From a gamma proteobacterium HTCC2207 (GTDB taxonomy: Bacteria; Pseudomonadota; Gammaproteobacteria; Pseudomonadales; Porticoccaceae), in assembly GCA_905182275.1 (NCBI GenBank), contig CAJJAU010000072.1:1-33062 (forward strand): a DNA stretch of 33,062 nucleotides, given 5' to 3'. Positions 110 through 11,146 of the stretch are shown piece after piece; positions within the stretch are counted from its first letter, which is position 1, and each line of letters starts with the position of its first letter. Both the position numbers and the translations under genes were made by a program. Below the pieces are notes generated by a model. The model saw nothing but the letters and a program-made list of their open reading frames with translations. It was not told the DNA's origin and made no database searches.

Positions 110-967
110 TTAATAGTCATACTTATGCTGAGTGAACAGTGTCTGAGCTGCTAGCCATATATCACCAATTTGGCCGTCACCAACAGGTACACCATCGACA
201 CTAACCACAGCACCTATCTCCTTAGTTGAACTGGTGATCCAGACTTCATCAGCCGCGCGAACCTCGTCCATTGTTACAGGGCGTTCTTCGACACGTATGG
301 AACCGTCTTCACGCAGTATATCAACAAGCATATTACGGGTGATACCGGGTAGGAGTTGGTTGTCTAGTGGCGGCGTAATGACCACCGAATCTTTCACGAT
401 AAAGGCATTGCAGGCGCTGGCCTCAGTCAGTTCATTTTTGTCATTGTAAAGTAGTGTCTCATCATTTCCTTGAGAATAACCTTCCTGAAAATGCAACACA
501 TTACCTAGCAAAGCAGTAGATTTAATATGGCAACGCTGCCAGCGCAGATCTTGGCTAGTTGAAACGGTATAGCGCTTGGCTGTTTCTTTGTTGGCGACCG
601 GCGATGCGGGTATATCGAAGGTAAAACCAAATATAGTCGGTTTAACGTCTTGAGGGAAAGCATGATAACGTTTGCTATCTGCTCCGCGACTGACTTGCAG
701 ATAGATACCTAAATTACCATTGCCATTTTCAGACGCAAGCTTGGTACAGAGTGTTTCCCATTCTTGATGCGTCCACTGTAAACCCAAGCCAATGCCGGCC
801 AGACCTTCTTGCATACGTGTTATGTGGCCGTTAAAGCCGAGTAACTTACCTTCATAGGAGGGGATTACTTCATAAATTCCGTCACCAAACAAAAAGCCTC
901 TGTCCATGGGAGAAATTTTGGCTTCGGTTATTGGCATGTAAGAGTCGTTTAGAAAGGCAATGCTCAT
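110..967 (-). CDS. dat: D-amino-acid transaminase (class IV PLP aminotransferase)
   Basis: This 285-residue protein has the normal length for fold-type IV aminotransferases. The PLP lysine is in RCHIKSTALLGN (K149), followed by the class IV signature around E183 (ELTEASACNAFIV) and the phosphate-binding SST segment (WITSSTKEIG, about 243-252). R100 and H102 match the Arg/His pair that binds the substrate carboxylate in Bacillus D-amino-acid transaminase, which favours D-amino-acid over branched-chain specificity. The expected reaction is D-alanine + 2-oxoglutarate giving pyruvate + D-glutamate, in the cytoplasm. A probable alanine racemase follows 14 bases downstream. Upstream, after a 302-base gap, is a 5-oxoprolinase/D-glutamate cyclase operon on the same strand, so its product D-glutamate could feed that operon. 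An aminodeoxychorismate lyase or BCAT assignment is less likely. Confidence 0.85.
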   Translation of the reverse strand: MSIAFLNDSYMPITEAKISPMDRGFLFGDGIYEVIPSYEGKLLGFNGHITRMQEGLAGIGLGLQWTHQEWETLCTKLASENGNGNLGIYLQVSRGADSKRYHAFPQDVKPTIFGFTFDIPASPVANKETAKRYTVSTSQDLRWQRCHIKSTALLGNVLHFQEGYSQGNDETLLYNDKNELTEASACNAFIVKDSVVITPPLDNQLLPGITRNMLVDILREDGSIRVEERPVTMDEVRAADEVWITSSTKEIGAVVSVDGVPVGDGQIGDIWLAAQTLFTQHKYDY

Positions 968-1269: not shown

Positions 1270-3045
1270 TTATACTTTAGATGTCAATCCGCTTACTTGC
1301 CTGCACCGTTCAATTAACGCCTCACTGGCACTTGAGTCCATGCCATCTTCGGTCAAGGTGTTCTCACCAGTCACGCCATCAACACTGCCTGCGGCAGACA
1401 AGTAAGCTAATACTGCGTGATTATTCCAGTTAGCCAGTAAATCTTTGCCGGTCATGACTGATAGCAGTGCGATGAGTCCATGCGCAGCCCAGTTGGACAC
1501 ATCTGCCACCAGTAATTCATCACAACAGGTTTGAGATGCTCGAATATCCAATTGACTGAGAGTCTCGGCAATATTGCCCATCCCAATTTCATTTCCGCCA
1601 TCACCAATAGCAATGGTAGGGCAGGGCGCATTGATCATAAAGCTATCAAAGTTGGCAGATTTATCTGAAATATCCATGCCGCGCATATTGTAATAACAGC
1701 CGTCGACGGCCTGTCCAGGACGTTCAATAGAAATAATTAAAGAGGGATTATACTGCGCTAAAATACGCTCGGCTTGATCATCATTGACGGTTATCTTATG
1801 AACCTGGTAGTCATTTTTCAGTGCGCTTGAAAGCGGCTCATCACAAACCATTATAGGATTGCCACCAAGCTCCTTAATGGCCCTATAAAGAGCGATAGCA
1901 CCCACGGGCCCATCGGTCTCAAAACTGCCATTTACTGGGAACCCAGTACCTATGAGTACGGTGCCAATAGAGTCACAGATTAAGTTGGCAGCCCGTAAAT
2001 AGGACCCGCTTTTGATGTCGGGGCTAACGGTTTGCATACCGCGAGGATTGAGAGCAACTAAAAGAGTTTCTATTTCTTGTGAAAGACGATCAAGGTCGAC
2101 TTTTGCTTGGCTTCTCTGAATATTTATTGCGGACAATTGCAAAAGGTTATGCGCCTCTTCGATACTAATAGGTTCAAAGTTGATGACGCTTTGTGGCGGT
2201 AGCTGTACTAGTTTATTAAGATCTAGCGACAGTACGGAGCCAATTTTTGGGTAGCCACCTATGGTCTGACGATCATTGAGTAGGATAATAGGCTGTCCAT
2301 CCGCAGGGACCTGCATGGCACCAAGGCAAATTCCCTCAGACAAAATGCCGTTCACGGAGGGCGCTATAGATGGGCCACTGAGCCGAAAGCCCATACGATC
2401 ATTGAGATCTGAAATTTGATAGTCTGAATTAAATAAAATATGCTTTTGCTGGTGGCTAAAATGCTCTTGTTGATACCCAAGTACGACTCTCAGCACGGTC
2501 TTTGTTGGCGCGTTCTGTAAATGTTGAGGTTGCTGCTCGAAGGGAACGTAGAGTGGCGCTAATAGCTCGGTGTCACGGCAGGGCAATAAATCGCCATTTT
2601 GTAGTTGCGCACCTTTGCCATCTAGGCCGCCAATGGATTCTCTGCCCACAGTGGAACAGCTGCCAAATACCGGTTGAACGGAAAATCCACCAGGTACTGA
2701 TAGGTAGCAACGCATGCCAACTGACGTAAACCCAATCTCAACCCGATCACCGACACTAATTCTATGCACCCTCCAGCCGTCAACTGACATTTTATTAATA
2801 CTTATTGGAACGGACGCGCCAGTCACCACAAAATAGCTACTAATGGTTGATTCAAACACTAAGCCACCAACAGTAATCTCAATGAGAGGGGTATTTAAGG
2901 GATTGGCACAGAGCTGATTGGCCCAGCGAAACGCGTCACGATCCATTGGCCCTCCCACGGTTAATCCGTTGTGATGTTGACCCATGCGCCCGGCATCTTG
3001 AATCAAACTTAAGATACCTGGTTGAATAACCTTGAGACCTTTCAT
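1270..3045 (-). CDS. pxpC: Fusion: 5-oxoprolinase subunit PxpC + D-glutamate cyclase C-terminal domain (DUF4392)
   Basis: I chose the ATG at 3045 because it overlaps the pxpB stop as ATGA and has GAGG upstream; a TTG at 3063 is possible. The product is 591 residues, about twice a normal PxpC. Residues 1 to about 300 are a complete PxpC/KipA (biotin-dependent carboxylase-like) domain: IQDAGRMGQHHNGL, GGPMDRDAFRWANQL, SDLNDRMGFRLSG, MQVPADGQPIILLNDRQT and GGYP. Residues about 320-591 match DUF4392, the C-terminal half of D-glutamate cyclase (DGLUCY): TGFPVNGSFETDGPVGA (367-383), ERPGQAVDGCYYNMRGMDIS (441-460) and GDGGNEIGMG (481-490). PxpABC opens 5-oxoproline to glutamate using ATP, and D-glutamate cyclase forms 5-oxo-D-proline from D-glutamate. 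The fusion therefore joins successive steps. The N-terminal cyclase half is a separate gene at the head of the cluster. Domain assignments are strong; the activity is inferred. Confidence 0.88.
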   Translation of the reverse strand: MKGLKVIQPGILSLIQDAGRMGQHHNGLTVGGPMDRDAFRWANQLCANPLNTPLIEITVGGLVFESTISSYFVVTGASVPISINKMSVDGWRVHRISVGDRVEIGFTSVGMRCYLSVPGGFSVQPVFGSCSTVGRESIGGLDGKGAQLQNGDLLPCRDTELLAPLYVPFEQQPQHLQNAPTKTVLRVVLGYQQEHFSHQQKHILFNSDYQISDLNDRMGFRLSGPSIAPSVNGILSEGICLGAMQVPADGQPIILLNDRQTIGGYPKIGSVLSLDLNKLVQLPPQSVINFEPISIEEAHNLLQLSAINIQRSQAKVDLDRLSQEIETLLVALNPRGMQTVSPDIKSGSYLRAANLICDSIGTVLIGTGFPVNGSFETDGPVGAIALYRAIKELGGNPIMVCDEPLSSALKNDYQVHKITVNDDQAERILAQYNPSLIISIERPGQAVDGCYYNMRGMDISDKSANFDSFMINAPCPTIAIGDGGNEIGMGNIAETLSQLDIRASQTCCDELLVADVSNWAAHGLIALLSVMTGKDLLANWNNHAVLAYLSAAGSVDGVTGENTLTEDGMDSSASEALIERCRQVSGLTSKV

Positions 3046-3770
3046 TTTTGGCCCTCGAAGCAATTCAGGTCACCACCCAGGTCAATAAATGCTTGCCTAT
3101 CAATCGCTTCAAATACCACTCGATCCCCCGTTTTTACGGGCATGTTGGGTTCTGAGTTGGGGTCAAACATTAGTGTTGGGCACAGACCAATCAAGTTCCA
3201 TCCACCGGGTGAAACTGCTGGATAAACGGCAGTTTGACGGTCGGCAATAGCGACAGCGCCCTTGGGAACTTTTTGGCGCGGTGTAGCTAATCGGGATGCG
3301 GCAATTCGCTCGTCAACTTCGCCAAGATAAGCAAAGCCAGGTGCAAAGCCGATAGCGTAAACACGATATTCAACAGATTGATGAATGGCAATGACTTGCT
3401 CAACGGTTAAGCCAGCATTCGCTGCCAAGCCAGCTAAATCAGGGCCGGATTCGAGGCCATAGTAGACCGGCAATTTCACCAATGCACCGCCCGCTGCATC
3501 AAGCGCACCCTCATCAGACTTATCAGCCAATTGCGCTGCGGCATGAATACTTTTACTGACGGCAAAGTGGTCTGTCAGGAGCGGATTGTAAATCACCAAA
3601 ATAGAGGCGTATGAGGGAATAAGATCAATCAGGTATGATTTCAAATTATCCCGAAGTGCTTCAGTCATACGCTGAATTTTCGCTGCAATCAGTGGCTCTG
3701 TTCGTGTCGATAAATAGACTATTAATGAGTTCTCGCCAGCCACGCAAATTTTCAGAGCATCAGTAGGCAT
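3042..3770 (-). CDS. pxpB: 5-oxoprolinase subunit PxpB (KipI family)
   Basis: PxpB forms the ATP-dependent 5-oxoprolinase with PxpA and PxpC, opening 5-oxoproline to glutamate in the cytoplasm. KipI/PxpB family features are visible: the N-terminal KICVAGENSLIVYL, then VYAIGFAPGFAYLGEVDERI, the ATPR-type segment SRLATPRQKVPKGAVAIADRQTAVYP, and SPGGWNLIGLCP. I chose the ATG at 3770, four bases after the pxpA stop, because family members start just before the AGENSL strand. This gives about 242 residues. A GTG at 3806 in the same frame would overlap pxpA by 32 bases and add 12 unlikely residues. The 3' end overlaps the pxpC fusion in an ATGA arrangement, indicating translational coupling. Confidence 0.92.
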   Translation of the reverse strand: MPTDALKICVAGENSLIVYLSTRTEPLIAAKIQRMTEALRDNLKSYLIDLIPSYASILVIYNPLLTDHFAVSKSIHAAAQLADKSDEGALDAAGGALVKLPVYYGLESGPDLAGLAANAGLTVEQVIAIHQSVEYRVYAIGFAPGFAYLGEVDERIAASRLATPRQKVPKGAVAIADRQTAVYPAVSPGGWNLIGLCPTLMFDPNSEPNMPVKTGDRVVFEAIDRQAFIDLGGDLNCFEGQK

Positions 3771-3774
3771 GCGG

Positions 3775-4518
3775 CTATCGTTTACTAAGTAGGTGACGAA
3801 TTTCACGAATAGCAGCTACGCCTTCACTATTGTCGCCATGAACACAAATAGAATCGGCTTGCAGCTCTAATTTATGGCCACTTATCGTGGTAATTGAGCC
3901 CTCATTGCTGAGTTGGGCGACCTGTTCTAGCATTTTTTCGCGGCTGTGAACGGCTCCGGGCAAACTGCGGCTAAGCAAGGCGCCATTATCGGCGTAACAG
4001 CGATCAGCAAAAACTTCAAAAATTAACTGTAAGCCGAAGGCAGCAGCTTCCTGTTTATGCTGTTCTGCGGAGGGCGTAGCTTGAAGCATAAATGCGAGAG
4101 GCTGTGGACAATCGCTGATGGCTTGCATAACCGCACTGCGGATATGGCCGTTGACCATCATGTCGTTGTAGAGGGCGCCGTGTGGCTTGACATAGTTGAC
4201 GCTAATACCCTGGGCCGTTGCGATCTCTAACAGTGTGGCGATTTGTTGTGTAATGAGATCGATAAGCTGTTGGTGTGGAATATCCATGGACAACCGACCA
4301 AAATTTTCTCTATCAGGATAGCTTGGGTGCGCACCCACAGTGACATTATTTTGTCGGGCCAAGGATAGCGTTTGCGCCATTACTGCTGAATCGCCAGCAT
4401 GCTGACCGCACGCAATACTCGCTTGGTCTATAAACGGCATTACTTGAGCGTCAACATTATCGCTATCGATGCAGGCACTTTCGCCAAGGTCGCAATTGAG
4501 TAGTAAAGTCATATCCAT
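3775..4518 (-). CDS. pxpA: 5-oxoprolinase subunit PxpA (LamB/YcsF family)
   Basis: The 247-residue protein shows the LamB/YcsF family signatures in order: LLNCDLGES near the N-terminus, SIACGQHAGDSAVM (about 34-47), VTVGAHPSYPDRENFGRLSMD (about 59-79) and YVKPHGALYNDM. PxpA works with PxpB and PxpC in ATP-dependent cleavage of 5-oxoproline. The start is the ATG at 4518, or another in-frame ATG at 4512; neither has a strong ribosome binding site. The 140-base spacer upstream contains a degenerate partial copy of this gene's own 5' end, which may have displaced the original leader. pxpB begins four bases after the stop. Confidence 0.93.
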   Translation of the reverse strand: MDMTLLLNCDLGESACIDSDNVDAQVMPFIDQASIACGQHAGDSAVMAQTLSLARQNNVTVGAHPSYPDRENFGRLSMDIPHQQLIDLITQQIATLLEIATAQGISVNYVKPHGALYNDMMVNGHIRSAVMQAISDCPQPLAFMLQATPSAEQHKQEAAAFGLQLIFEVFADRCYADNGALLSRSLPGAVHSREKMLEQVAQLSNEGSITTISGHKLELQADSICVHGDNSEGVAAIREIRHLLSKR

Positions 4519-4549
4519 AGTTTAAATCAACCGGTTCGTAGAGTCGCTA

Positions 4550-4650
4550 TCTCGATCAGGGTAGCTTGGGTGAGCGCCGACAGTGACCTTATTTTGTAGG
4601 GCCAAGATTACAACTGAATAAAAGGATCATATCCTAAATCAACCGATTCT
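4550..4650 (-). pseudogene. Decayed partial duplicate of the pxpA 5' end
   Basis: The spacer between the DUF1445 gene and pxpA contains two blocks homologous to pxpA in the same order and orientation. First, an ATG at 4630 opens MILLFSCNLG, matching pxpA MTLLLNCDLG (20 of 30 bases identical). The leader before it (TAAATCAACCGATTC on the plus strand) also matches the pxpA leader at 4523-4537 in 14 of 15 bases. Second, 4550-4610 matches pxpA 4307-4367 without gaps in 52 of 61 bases, preserving a reading LALQNKVTVGAHPSYPDR. The blocks meet at CTTGGC, a word present in pxpA at both positions, which fits an internal deletion between short repeats. The join shifts frame, and the small frame stops after 13 codons. 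It is a relic, not a gene. Confidence 0.8.
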
Positions 4651-4658
4651 CAGTGCCA

Positions 4659-5444
4659 CTATTTGCTTTCAAAGTTACTGTTGAGCACGTCAGTCACTAG
4701 CATACAACCTGGGCTATGAGTTATACAGAAGGGTGGCTTGGCTTGTTCTAAGGCTACTTGAGGTGTCACACCACAGGCCCAAAATAAAGGTTCTTCATCG
4801 CTATTAATGGTTACTGCTTCGCCGTAGTCCGGGTTATTGATGTCCTTAATGCCGATGAGCTCAGGGCTGCCATAGTGAACAGGTGCACCATGTACGCGCG
4901 GGAAACGCGCACTAATGTCTGTCGCTCGAGTGGCGTCGGGTTTATTAAAAGGTCGCATGCTGACGACCATCTTGCCACTAAAAGGACCGGCGGGTTCACA
5001 GTCGATATTGGTTCTATACATTGGCACGTTGCGACCCTCACTGATATTCCGTACATCTAGGCCTTCTGCAAGAATCGCTTCTTCGAAGGAAAATGAACAA
5101 CCCAGCAAAAAGACCACTAAATCATCACGCCAAAGTGATCTAATGTCAGAGCGTTCGTCGGTCAGCAGACCATCTTCAAAAACTCTGTAACTGGAGATAT
5201 CTGTTCTAATGTCGACATCTAGGCCCAATTCTGGAAGTTTAAATTCACCCGGTTTAGATGTGGCTATCAAGGGGCAGGGTTTTGGATTAGCGAGACAGAA
5301 TTGAGTGAAATCAGCAGCCCATGCAGTCGGCAATATAACGAGATTACACTGCACGTAGCCTTGGCAAAGGCCAGAGGTCATGCCGGTGTGTTTTCCCCGT
5401 CGAATCTGCATGCGCAGGTTCTCAGGCGATGGGCTTGTTGACAT
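4659..5444 (-). CDS. ycsI: DUF1445/YcsI protein, N-terminal half of D-glutamate cyclase
   Basis: This is a 261-residue DUF1445 (D-Glu_cyclase, YcsI) protein of normal stand-alone length. Family motifs seen: GYVQCNLVILP and FTQFCLANPKPCPL near the N-terminus, VFLLGCSFSFEEA, NVPMYRTNIDCEPAGPFSGK, VVSMRPFN, RVHGAPVHYGSPELIGI, and LFWACGVTPQVAL with HSPGCMLVTDV at the C-terminus. In vertebrate DGLUCY this domain is followed by a DUF4392 domain in one chain. Here the DUF4392 part is attached to PxpC three genes downstream. I used the ATG at 5444, which has AAAAGGA nine bases upstream; an in-frame TTG lies one codon earlier. It begins 19 bases after the proS stop. The annotation 'putative hydro-lyase' is an older alternative name. 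The catalytic role is inferred from the family. Confidence 0.88.
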   Translation of the reverse strand: MSTSPSPENLRMQIRRGKHTGMTSGLCQGYVQCNLVILPTAWAADFTQFCLANPKPCPLIATSKPGEFKLPELGLDVDIRTDISSYRVFEDGLLTDERSDIRSLWRDDLVVFLLGCSFSFEEAILAEGLDVRNISEGRNVPMYRTNIDCEPAGPFSGKMVVSMRPFNKPDATRATDISARFPRVHGAPVHYGSPELIGIKDINNPDYGEAVTINSDEEPLFWACGVTPQVALEQAKPPFCITHSPGCMLVTDVLNSNFESK

Positions 5445-5463
5445 CAATCCATGTCCTTTTGGG

Positions 5464-7194
5464 TTAGCCTTTTACTAAGGCATTTTCGGATAGAAAGCGG
5501 ACTATATCGTCGGTTGCTATATATTGATTTTCAGTCTCTCGGCGATGACGGTACTCAATCTTTCCGTCATCAAGGCCGCGATCACCGATCACCACTCGAT
5601 GAGGGATACCAATCAACTCTATGTCAGCCAGCATGCCGCCTAACCTAGCCTTGGCCTGATCCATAAAGAGGACTTCGTACCCCAGTTCTGTTAGTTGGTC
5701 ATATAGACCTTCACAGGCTAATTTAACGGCCTCAGACTTGTGCATGTTGATCGGCACAATGGCAATTTGGAAAGGTGCGATAGATTCAGGCCATATAATG
5801 CCATTGGCATCATTATTTTGCTCAATCGCCGCGGCTACAATTCGACTAACGCCAATGCCATAGCAGCCCATACTCATAAACTGCTCTTTACCATTTTCAT
5901 CAAGCACTGTGGCCTTCATGGATTCGCTATATTTTGTACCTAACTGAAATATGTGTCCTACTTCGATACCGCGTTTAATCTCTAGGGTGCCTTTACCATC
6001 GGGACTAGCATCACCAGCGACGACATTGCGAATATCAGCTACCGTGAAGTCAGCGCAGTCGCGATCCCAGTTCACGCCAGTGAAGTGAAAATCGTTTTTG
6101 TTAGCGCCGCAACTGAAGTCTCTCAAAGCTGCTGCACTGGGGTCAACAATCATGGTTAAGCCTAAGCCAACCGGTCCGATCGAGCCAGGTGCGCATTGCA
6201 ATGCGGATTTAATCTGTTGTTCAGTTGCAAAAGCAATATCGCCACTAAGGCCCAAAACGCGTTGGGCTTTTACTTCATTTAACTCGTGGTCGCCGCGCAA
6301 CATGAGGCCAAACAGTTCAGCTTCTCCCTCATTATTTTCAGCACTAATAATTAATGCTTTTAGTGTTTGATTGGCCTCAACACTTAAGAATGTAGCCAGG
6401 TCACTAATGGTATGCACTCCAGGAGTAGCAATTTCTGCCATGGGTGCCGTACCTGATGGATTATTCTGTTCGGGTGCTAAGGCTTCAGCCTTCTCAATGT
6501 TCGCTGCGTAGTCACTGCCATTAGAAAACACAATAGCGTCTTCTCCTGACTCAGCAAGCACGTGAAATTCATGAGAATGACTTCCGCCGATACTTCCAGT
6601 ATCGGCAAGCACCGCTCTAAAGACTAGCCCGGTTCGTTGGAAGATTTCTGAGTAAGTACGGTGCATGAGATCGTAAGTCTCTTGCAGTGAATCTGCGTTG
6701 CTGTGAAACGAATAGGCATCCTTCATACAAAATTCACGTGTACGCATTACTCCAAAGCGAGGTCTGCGTTCATCGCGGAACTTAGTTTGTATTTGATAGA
6801 AGTTCGCCGGTAGTTGCTTGTAGCTACTAATTTCACTGCGAATAATGTCTGTAATGACTTCTTCATGGGTTGGGCCCAAGCAAAACTCACGATCGTGACG
6901 ATCCTTGATACGCAAAAGTTCGGGACCAAATTGATTCCAGCGCTTGGACTCTTGCCACAGATCAGCGGGTTGGACGACTGGCATCATTAATTCAAGCGCA
7001 CCGGACCTGTCCATTTCTTCGCGAACGATATTTTCAACCTTTCGGAATACCTTGAGTCCAAGAGGGAGCCATGAGTAGAGGCCTGAGGCAACCTTCCTTA
7101 TCATGCCCGCTCGTAGCATTAGTTTGTGACTGATTACCTCAGCGTCTGCAGGAGAGTCTTTTTTCGTTGTGATTAGGTATCGGCTAGCGCGCAT
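5464..7194 (-). CDS. proS: Prolyl-tRNA synthetase (bacterial type, with editing domain)
   Basis: This class II synthetase charges tRNA-Pro with proline. It has the full bacterial architecture in 576 residues: an N-terminal catalytic part with motif 1 and motif 2 ([25 protein letters not shown], about 139-163), the INS editing insertion (about 225-400), motif 3 ([10 protein letters not shown], 443-452), and the C-terminal anticodon-binding domain (from about 475). K279 in the segment NQTLKAL matches the editing lysine of the E. coli enzyme, so clearance of Ala-tRNA-Pro is probably intact. The start ATG has AAGAGA just upstream. The DUF1445 gene starts 19 bases after the stop, so proS may head the 5-oxoprolinase operon. 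Divergent from the HIT gene. Confidence 0.97.
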
Positions 7195-10582: not shown

Positions 10583-11146
10583 ATGAAAGTTATAAAAAAG
10601 ACAAAAGAATATGTTGTATATCAAAAAGGCTCTGGCCGTTATGCGGTAAAAGATGCTGGCAAAGATTGGGTCAATGGTGACGAGAAAGTTAAAGTTTTGT
10701 TGGCCGAAGGTTTAATTAAAGCAGTTATGCCTGCCGCTCCTGTAGTTGAGGAAGCTCCGGTGGAAGAAGTCGCCGCTGTTGAAGAGGCACCTGCTGTTGA
10801 AGAGGCACCTGCTGTTGAAGAAGTAGCTGTGGTTGAAGAAGTAGCTGTTGCTGAAGAAGTAGCTGTTGTTGAAGAAGCACCTGCTGTTGAAGAAGCACCT
10901 GCTGTTGAAGAAGTAGCTGTTGTTGAAGAAGCACCGGCTGTCGAAGAAGTAGCTGTTGTTGCAGAAGCACCGGCTGTCGAAGAAGCACCTGCTGCGGAAG
11001 AAGCACCTGCCGCTGAAGAAGCTAAGCCAAAAGCTAAAGCAAAAGCTGCACCTAAAGCAAAAGCTGCACCTAAAGCAAAAGCTGCGCCTAAAGCAAAGGC
11101 TGCACCTAAAGCAAAAGCTAAGCCTGCAGCGAAATCAGAGGACTAA
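10583..11146 (+). CDS. Low-complexity acidic/basic repeat protein with histone-H1-like tail
   Basis: This 187-residue protein has three visible parts. Residues 1 to about 50 (KVIKKTKEYVVYQKGSGRYA, then WVNGDEKVKVLLAEGLIKA) look folded, with no signal peptide. Residues about 54-146 are acidic and built of VEEAPA, VEEVAV and AAEEAP units. Residues about 147-184 are basic, with PKAKAA units like the tails of histone H1 or AlgP. GAGGT before the ATG supports the start. It lies between aspS and ruvC, where Pseudomonas carries yebC, and ends in a strong terminator, so it forms its own unit. I do not recognise a family by name. The basic tail could bind nucleic acid or the acidic block; this is inference. 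The reverse-strand frame here is only a Leu/Gln-rich shadow. Confidence 0.82.
   Translation: MKVIKKTKEYVVYQKGSGRYAVKDAGKDWVNGDEKVKVLLAEGLIKAVMPAAPVVEEAPVEEVAAVEEAPAVEEAPAVEEVAVVEEVAVAEEVAVVEEAPAVEEAPAVEEVAVVEEAPAVEEVAVVAEAPAVEEAPAAEEAPAAEEAKPKAKAKAAPKAKAAPKAKAAPKAKAAPKAKAKPAAKSED

Follow-up and report, generated by a model that had tools for sequence, protein, structure and literature searches.

The window, by which we mean the whole 33,062-nt stretch of DNA analysed here, comes from a SAR92-group marine bacterium (gamma proteobacterium HTCC2207, family Porticoccaceae), and the minus strand of positions 1270-5447 encodes DUF1445, pxpA, pxpB and a PxpC::DUF4392 fusion, all four well above their Pfam cut-offs. 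The DUF1445 gene (4659..5447, minus strand), a homologue of the N-terminal part of D-glutamate cyclase, specifies 262 aa from a TTG or 261 aa from the ATG at 5444; its product matches PF07286 with 219.8 bits (cut-off 25) and NF003969, named 'putative hydro-lyase', with 400.8 (cut-off 324), and has homologues with solved structures (3db9 and 2pif). On the same strand lie pxpA (3775..4518; 247 aa; PF03746, 269.2 bits against a cut-off of 22; NF003816, 305.3 against 213) and pxpB (3042..3806; 254 aa; PF02682, 210.2 bits against 22.1; TIGR00370, 151.1 against 145.55), which encode 5-oxoprolinase subunits A and B, and the coordinates of pxpB overlap those of both its neighbours, pxpA and the fusion gene. 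Between DUF1445 and pxpA lies a duplication scar, a 57-nt copy (88%) of pxpA 4307-4363 at 4550..4606 (minus strand).

The fusion gene (1270..3045, minus strand) is a single open frame with two Pfam domains, encoding 591 aa from an ATG and 597 aa from an upstream TTG. In the 597-aa frame, the PxpC part (2116..3036, minus strand) matches PF02626 over residues 33-298 (259.0 bits, cut-off 25) and TIGR00724 over residues 10-316 (249.3 bits, cut-off 230.2) and is homologous to YbgK (5dud); the fusion stays below the strict NCBI cut-off of the PxpC equivalog NF045499 (203.7 bits against 500). The PxpA, PxpB and PxpC domains of a 5-oxoprolinase are thus all present and adjacent. The DUF4392 (GLUCM-like_C) part falls at exactly 1306..2058 on the minus strand (PF14336, E 1.6e-68), or residues 336-586 of the 597-aa frame (228.8 bits, cut-off 27.9). 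A sixth conserved operon gene, for a D-amino-acid transaminase (DAAT; 110..967, minus strand; 285 aa; PF01063), lies 302 bp downstream of the fusion in a position conserved among relatives. At 5464..7194 (minus strand) is a prolyl-tRNA synthetase gene, named by eye ('ProRS' in our blast reference), which is the usual upstream neighbour in the genus. A search for promoters and terminators gave 11 and 8 matches, nothing beyond chance given shuffle means of 12.9 and 7.2. An earlier sequence-only reading of this DNA had placed the first four genes where we find them and had recognized the cyclase halves as separate, with DUF1445 at one end, DUF4392 on PxpC at the other and pxpA and pxpB between; the Pfam search bears out these positions and both domains of the 591-residue protein, and the account of the operon needs to be extended to DAAT, which lay beyond the range then considered.

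The DUF4392 part is homologous to TON_0340 (E 4e-37), the one assayed free-standing DUF4392 protein, which is reported as a weak Mn-dependent phosphatase whose metal ligands have been named (PMC5132392). When the alignment was read by hand, E59, D61, E115, D157, E161 and D246 of TON_0340 corresponded to E382, D384, E447, D488, E492 and D573 of the fusion (597-aa numbering; codons within 1345..1920, minus strand). Our alignment held 135 DUF4392 rows, six repeated contigs included and one locus (L190) left out; all six ligands are present in 130 of the 131 rows that cover every site, and the remaining row has an X at one of them.

The survey of genomes that the sequence-only reading had proposed found the fusion in 13 of the 44 other fetched family loci, two of the 13 being cut by a contig end, and it is present in 14 of the 45 family genomes with DUF4392, a count in which G037 and G095 are entered as unfused even though their DUF4392 frames (L146, which is also L038, and L064, respectively) are open at the contig start and could be fused. 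Linkers between the fused domains vary in sequence across these genomes. On a quick tree with SH-aLRT support only, from which four rows with missing genes were left out and in which the outgroup did not form one side of a branch, a single origin of the fusion was rejected by an AU test, the tested clades having been chosen with the tree already in view. The pxpC and DUF4392 genes have thus fused at least twice in the family, which they could do because they are neighbours. Many marine relatives carry the same gene grouping unfused, and DUF4392 is visibly a separate gene in 79 of the best 80 of 561 confirmed loci, which makes the fusion a local variant. It would tie one cyclase part to the 5-oxoprolinase and appears not to be needed for function.

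The best 80 loci were ranked by likeness to the DUF4392 alignment, with ORF limits taken from stop to stop, and five of them (L143, L145, L146, L154 and L158) are already-fetched contigs of the window's own family. Within this set the five-gene order is mostly fixed, and DUF1445-pxpA-pxpB-pxpC-DUF4392-DAAT is complete in 53 of the 80. A mirror-tree comparison of 90 loci, from which these five repeats and any locus that lacked one of the genes or fell under the length limits were dropped, gave pairwise distance correlations of 0.67-0.80 among DUF1445, PxpA, PxpB, PxpC and DUF4392, indicating a common history; correlations of DAAT with these five proteins were only 0.30-0.47, indicating a different one. 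The partial correlation between DUF1445 and DUF4392 (0.21) is no higher than others (0.32 for PxpA-PxpC), so the mirror-tree does not single out that pair. Pfam searches of 20 chosen neighbours from 13 loci returned LysR and Lrp/AsnC regulators and other, apparently unconnected genes, as well as PALP pyridoxal-phosphate enzymes near the cluster in two loci (L108 and L157) and an alanine racemase after DAAT in one (L148).

Across 98 family genomes, DUF1445 was found in 41, DUF4392 in 45 and both in 41, with no genome carrying DUF1445 only; in the four genomes with DUF4392 only, the locus is broken at a contig end. Eight family genomes without either cyclase part retain proS-pxpA-pxpB-pxpC-DAAT, one of them (L085) with DAAT split over two frames. 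The two parts were lost together, in two events on the best tree or, as the AU test allows for this likewise post hoc clade (p 0.175), in one. This joint presence and joint absence supports the view that DUF1445 and DUF4392 would form one two-part cyclase. The two are also adjacent without pxpABC in three distinct loci (L147, L157 and L198; L197 is the same 466,459-base contig as L157 and was counted once), and in all five of the best 80 loci that have pxpABC-DUF4392-DAAT and no local DUF1445, DUF1445 lies elsewhere in the genome. Beyond the family they are not always a pair, because the B. subtilis control has DUF1445 and lacks DUF4392. DUF4392 occurs without DUF1445 in two genomes (G511 and G558), a search of two MAGs (G894 and G898) did not recover DUF1445, and in a phylum sample four of nine loci (L191-L194) have DUF4392 without other cluster genes nearby. 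The suggestion of the sequence-only reading that DUF1445 and DUF4392 belong together holds up well, and a coupling of the cyclase to PxpABC gains from the shared history and the mostly fixed order. What does not survive is the importance given to the fusion, which most relatives do without, PxpABC itself persisting in the eight cyclase-free genomes. Likewise, to call the cyclase 're-fused' misleads: DUF4392 is joined to PxpC and not to DUF1445, and the usual arrangement among the bacteria examined is one of separate genes.

The closest solved relatives of the DAAT are D-amino acid aminotransferases, and by hand alignment to 3daa it carries the entire canonical motif (F26, Y31, [VA]33, [KRPT]35, xYxQ and RxH; residues as given in Table 2 of PMC10003956), at scores below the NCBIfam cut-offs (227.1 against 277.45 for TIGR01121 and 233.2 against 320 for NF005209). 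DAAT is present in 35 of 36 SAR92 genus genomes, and the usual glutamate racemase, MurI, exceeds its cut-off in none of the 36. In a class sample of 369 genomes, 68 had MurI only, 217 DAAT only, 47 both and 37 neither, the last against 72 expected (uncorrected for kinship), a complementarity on which we retain the view that DAAT stands in for MurI; subject to the same correction, these counts point to a broad exchange of MurI and DAAT in Gammaproteobacteria. A further idea, that absence of MurI accounts for the cluster, looked strong in the family and was dropped, since MurI is over its cut-off in only 115 of the 369 class-sample genomes and in 16 of the 48 cluster genomes searched among those of the best 80 loci. 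The MurD2/MurL route was also considered and, as judged from the Mur ligases, is opposed: at the positions of D182 and K348 of E. coli MurD, counted by hand, the window genome's MurD has the D-glutamate residues D and K and so differs from MurD2, which uses L-glutamate, and a fifth Mur-ligase match turned out to be Mpl.

We consider it about an even chance that the locus is a node between D-glutamate and 5-oxoproline, in which DAAT supplies D-glutamate, a two-part cyclase closes the ring and PxpABC returns the product to glutamate. The activities, the direction of flux, a physical complex and the D-isomer's route to PxpABC are what we infer in this proposal. DAAT would interconvert D-alanine plus 2-oxoglutarate and D-glutamate plus pyruvate, and would offer D-glutamate a route of supply as well as one of removal. 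Since no gene scores above the MurI cut-off, this enzyme probably supplies the cell's D-glutamate for peptidoglycan. DUF1445 and DUF4392, as a putative two-part, metal-dependent counterpart of the one-chain vertebrate DGLUCY, whose product is 5-oxo-D-proline (PMC5339696), would convert surplus or recycled D-glutamate to 5-oxo-D-proline, and PxpABC would convert 5-oxoproline to glutamate at the expense of ATP. Were PxpABC to return D-glutamate, the result would be an ATP-burning futile cycle, so inversion, export or another role must be assumed; channelling through the fusion is conjectural.

One alternative, possible if rather unlikely, is that two clean-up pathways run in parallel, the cyclase discarding D-glutamate as exported 5-oxo-D-proline and PxpABC separately repairing spontaneous 5-oxo-L-proline, with the genes co-located because glutamate by-products are regulated together, and with the fusion arising as a neutral accident. 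Each half does occur without the other, in the eight genomes and three loci described above, PxpABC has been described with 5-oxo-L-proline (PMC13274462), and humans excrete 5-oxo-D-proline according to work cited in a mouse study (PMC5339696). The mostly fixed gene order, the shared history and two separate DUF4392-PxpC fusions speak against such independence.

It is improbable that both pyroglutamate enantiomers serve as food, 5-oxo-L-proline through PxpABC and 5-oxo-D-proline through DUF1445/DUF4392 to D-glutamate and, through DAAT, to 2-oxoglutarate. Hydrolysis of 5-oxoproline without help is unfavourable, which means that the cyclase by itself could not work in the ring-opening direction, and no 5-oxoproline uptake gene was recognized by Pfam among the 20 chosen neighbours. 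In its favour, DAAT would offer an outlet for D-glutamate, and Corynebacterium glutamicum uses pyroglutamate for carbon and nitrogen via pxpTABC (PMC13274462). We would be similarly surprised if the five proteins proved to be one ATP-driven machine that inverts D- to L-glutamate via 5-oxoproline, with the cyclase closing the ring, one part inverting the stereocentre at the ring stage and PxpABC reopening it; a Pfam search for an inverting enzyme found no recurrent candidate in the 20 chosen neighbours from 13 loci. Such a machine would be a MurI-independent, one-way means of reclaiming D-glutamate, in which the fusion would keep the ring-closing and ring-opening enzymes joined.

A role for DUF4392 as a metal-dependent phosphatase or PxpABC helper, acting for example on a phosphorylated ring-opening intermediate, is very improbable. 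The Mn-dependent phosphatase activity of TON_0340 (PMC5132392), the conservation of all six ligands and a fusion partner that is PxpC, not DUF1445, would fit it, and the fusion would then reflect that role; against it, PxpABC persists without DUF4392, which is missing jointly with DUF1445 in the family, has DUF1445 as its only partner in three loci and is joined to it in the vertebrate chain (PMC5132392). A sequencing or assembly error that joined two genes is effectively ruled out, because the fusion recurs, with linkers of differing sequence, across 14 of the 45 family genomes that have DUF4392.

In the literature searched, we found no role assigned to bacterial homologues of either D-glutamate cyclase domain. 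Under the D-glutamate/5-oxoproline reading that we favour, the cluster offers a testable role for both, D-glutamate handling in bacteria in which MurI was not found; the bacterial fate of D-glutamate has been little studied, and the cluster makes it accessible to experiment. It could also help to explain the separate roles of the two vertebrate domains.

The operon shares both its cyclase domains with vertebrate DGLUCY (9030617O03Rik, C14orf159), including the DUF4392 metal site (6/6), but here they are on two polypeptides encoded at opposite ends of pxpABC, with DUF4392 on PxpC. Since they are not in one chain, we class the operon not as DGLUCY itself but as a likely counterpart in two parts. 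With PxpABC of the YbgJ/YbgK/YbgL type and Bacillus ycsF-kipI-kipA, all three subunits are held in common, whereas here the C subunit has a DUF4392 tail and scores below the strict PxpC equivalog cut-off, and DAAT follows. In B. subtilis, ycsI, which we take to be a DUF1445 gene, is described in the same operon as ycsF-kipI-kipA. TON_0340 of Thermococcus onnurineus (4dwz, 5gl2-5gl4) is homologous to the C-terminal domain of the fusion and shares all six ligands with it, yet is a free-standing archaeal protein and a reported phosphatase, whereas here the domain is fused to PxpC. The DAAT has the canonical residues of D-amino-acid transaminase (1daa, 3daa) at positions 26, 31, 33, 35, 88/90 and 98/100, but scores below the NCBIfam cut-offs and has a predicted substrate. 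Finally, the Xanthomonas MurD2/MurL route is likewise an alternative to MurI in Gammaproteobacteria, whereas the MurD of the window's genome is of the canonical type.

The domain architecture proposed from the sequence alone, a four-gene arrangement including a 591-residue PxpC::DUF4392 frame, is borne out by Pfam matches on the window's minus strand. These comprise a DUF1445 gene (4659-5447), pxpA (3775-4518), pxpB (3042-3806) and a single 591-residue frame (1270-3045) that joins an N-terminal PxpC half to a C-terminal DUF4392 half, with scores for all five domains approximately 8-12 times the curated cut-offs. Among solved structures, the PxpC half of the fusion is closest to YbgK (5dud), its DUF4392 half to the archaeal DUF4392 protein TON_0340 and related proteins (4dwz, 4fc5), and the DUF1445 protein to 3db9 and 2pif. 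Six metal-binding residues are described for TON_0340 (PMC5132392), and a hand-read alignment identifies equivalents of all six in the fusion (E382, D384, E447, D488, E492 and D573, numbered in a 597-residue frame). Of 135 aligned DUF4392 rows, 131 span the complete set of sites, and every residue is present in 130 of them; the remaining row has an X at one site. The gap between the DUF1445 gene and pxpA harbors a 57-nt, 88% copy (4550-4606) of pxpA codons at 4307-4363 and a 35-nt, 74% repeat (4516-4550 and 4628-4662); the repeats at 4516-4662 are a duplication scar. Elsewhere in the window, the protein encoded at 10583-11146 is of low complexity, with abundant Ala, Val, Glu and Lys and short recurring motifs.

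The sequence-only reading stopped at these four genes and lacked the sixth gene of the cluster, a D-amino-acid transaminase (DAAT, 110-967) downstream of the fusion gene. We assigned it from its nearest solved structures, which are D-amino acid aminotransferases, and from the presence of the canonical specificity residues (F, Y, V, P, YxQ and RxH) tabulated in PMC10003956; its score is below the NCBIfam cut-offs.

The fusion is a genuine, local variant that recurs. DUF4392 is present in 45 of 98 genomes of the window's family, and 14 of the 45, counting the window's own genome, have PxpC and DUF4392 in one frame. In 29 of the 45 DUF4392 is a separate gene, and in two genomes (G037, G095) its frame runs off the start of a contig, where the fused or separate state cannot be judged. 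On a tree built from concatenated PxpA, PxpB and PxpC, 12 fusions form one clade (SH-aLRT 98) and another, L054 from genome G043, sits apart among unfused relatives; forcing all 13 fusions in the tree together is rejected (AU p 0.002). No fusion was found among the best 80 of 561 DUF4392 loci (hereafter the named loci), although in one of them, L146, the frame runs off the start of the contig.

Fused or not, the six genes keep a single order in 38 of 44 fetched family relatives, including two with broken genes (L053, L062), and in the remaining six the cluster is cut by contig ends. Among the named loci (best 80 of 561), 53 exhibit the full six-gene order, two have the first five genes plus a weakly similar aminotransferase on the opposite strand, nine have the first five genes and no DAAT within the examined stretch, five lack DUF1445 alone, nine are cut short and two lack pxpABC. 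DUF4392 is uncommon in even samples, the counts being 3 in 369 genomes for the class and 10 in 398 for the phylum, the window's genome included. DUF4392, DUF1445 or DAAT genes are split over frames in L053, L062 and L085, perhaps through decay or assembly faults, and in L087 and L088, from another genus of the family (g6), DAAT comes immediately after proS, without intervening pxp genes. Pairwise distances across 90 loci correlate at 0.67-0.80 among DUF1445, PxpA, PxpB, PxpC and DUF4392, compared with only 0.30-0.47 between DAAT and those five, such that the five appear to have been inherited as one unit, with DAAT as a looser neighbor. These correlations support a general coupling between cyclase and 5-oxoprolinase and single out no particular pair.

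Within the window's family, the two cyclase parts travel together. All 41 family genomes with DUF1445 (of 98) also encode DUF4392, and in the four with DUF4392 and no DUF1445 (G024, G037, G075, G095) contigs break in or beside the cluster. Eight genomes of the window's genus lack both parts and retain proS-pxpA-pxpB-pxpC-DAAT; a ninth, G097 (85% complete), is without either part and gave no DAAT match. The best tree splits the eight into two clades, but a single clade is not rejected (AU p 0.175), so that joint loss occurred in one or two events. Further afield, five named loci (best 80 of 561) with pxpABC-DUF4392-DAAT and no DUF1445 have DUF1445 elsewhere in the genome, and in L147, L157 and L198 (L197 being the L157 contig) DUF1445 adjoins DUF4392 without pxpABC, a minimal two-gene form. 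Strict pairing is contradicted by the B. subtilis control, which has DUF1445 without DUF4392, and by G511 and G558, which carry DUF4392 without DUF1445; nor was DUF1445 found in the DUF4392-bearing MAGs G894 and G898. Four of nine phylum-sample loci (L191-L194) have no other cluster gene near DUF4392. Genome G774 contains a 3439-residue open frame (L190:1683-11999) in which DUF4392 occurs twice along with a match to DUF4781, and a DUF1445 gene a few kb away.

Several observations bear on the source of D-glutamate. The usual glutamate racemase, MurI, exceeds the TIGR00067 cut-off in 46 of 98 family genomes and in none of the 36 genomes of the window's genus, two of which give weak matches; DAAT is found in 56 and 35 of these, respectively. 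Eight family genomes have both and four have neither (G008, G013, G038, G097), of which G008 has MurI fragments and the G013 contig stops inside the fusion gene. Among 369 class genomes, 68 have MurI only, 217 DAAT only, 47 both and 37 neither, versus 72 expected to have neither under independence (Fisher odds ratio 0.12, uncorrected for kinship). Put differently, a DAAT-like gene occurs in 217 of the 254 class genomes in which MurI is absent or below cut-off, many of these matches being only ~40% identical to the window DAAT and thus less sure in substrate. The window's genome encodes Mpl, a murein-recycling ligase, and a MurD over cut-off with, by hand count, D and K at E. coli positions 182 and 348, where the L-glutamate user MurD2 is described as having E and R (PMC8788868). 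The authors of PMC5808125 state that, to their knowledge, microbial D-glutamate formation is limited to racemases and D-aminotransferases, and present MurL as a new route. Together, the MurI/DAAT distribution, the MurD residues and these known routes make DAAT the likely D-glutamate source. The cluster itself does not follow the loss of MurI, with MurI over cut-off in 16 of 48 cluster genomes (from the best 80 of 561 loci) versus 115 of 369 in the class sample. In L148 (marine gammaproteobacterium HTCC2148), an alanine racemase gene directly follows DAAT and would supply it with D-alanine.

According to the respective reports, DGLUCY, the vertebrate one-chain cyclase, converts D-glutamate to 5-oxo-D-proline (PMC5339696), PxpABC uses ATP to convert 5-oxoproline to glutamate (PMC13274462) and Dat interconverts D-alanine and D-glutamate (PMC5458566). 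Combined, these reactions suggest a loop in which DAAT would link D-alanine and D-glutamate, the two-part cyclase would close the ring and PxpABC would reopen 5-oxoproline with ATP. Stereochemistry is the weak step of this loop: were PxpABC to hydrolyze 5-oxo-D-proline to D-glutamate, the cyclase would be undone at the cost of ATP. Either inversion occurs at the ring, or the two enzymes operate in parallel, or the flux has a different direction.

Parts of this arrangement have precedents. The B. subtilis operon already unites ycsI, which we take to be DUF1445, with pxpABC. The report on TON_0340 notes that the two cyclase domains, joined in one chain in higher animals, are separate proteins in other organisms (PMC5132392). 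The component families are known; as far as literature searches show, their arrangement in a PxpC::DUF4392 fusion and in a six-gene cluster is a new variant.
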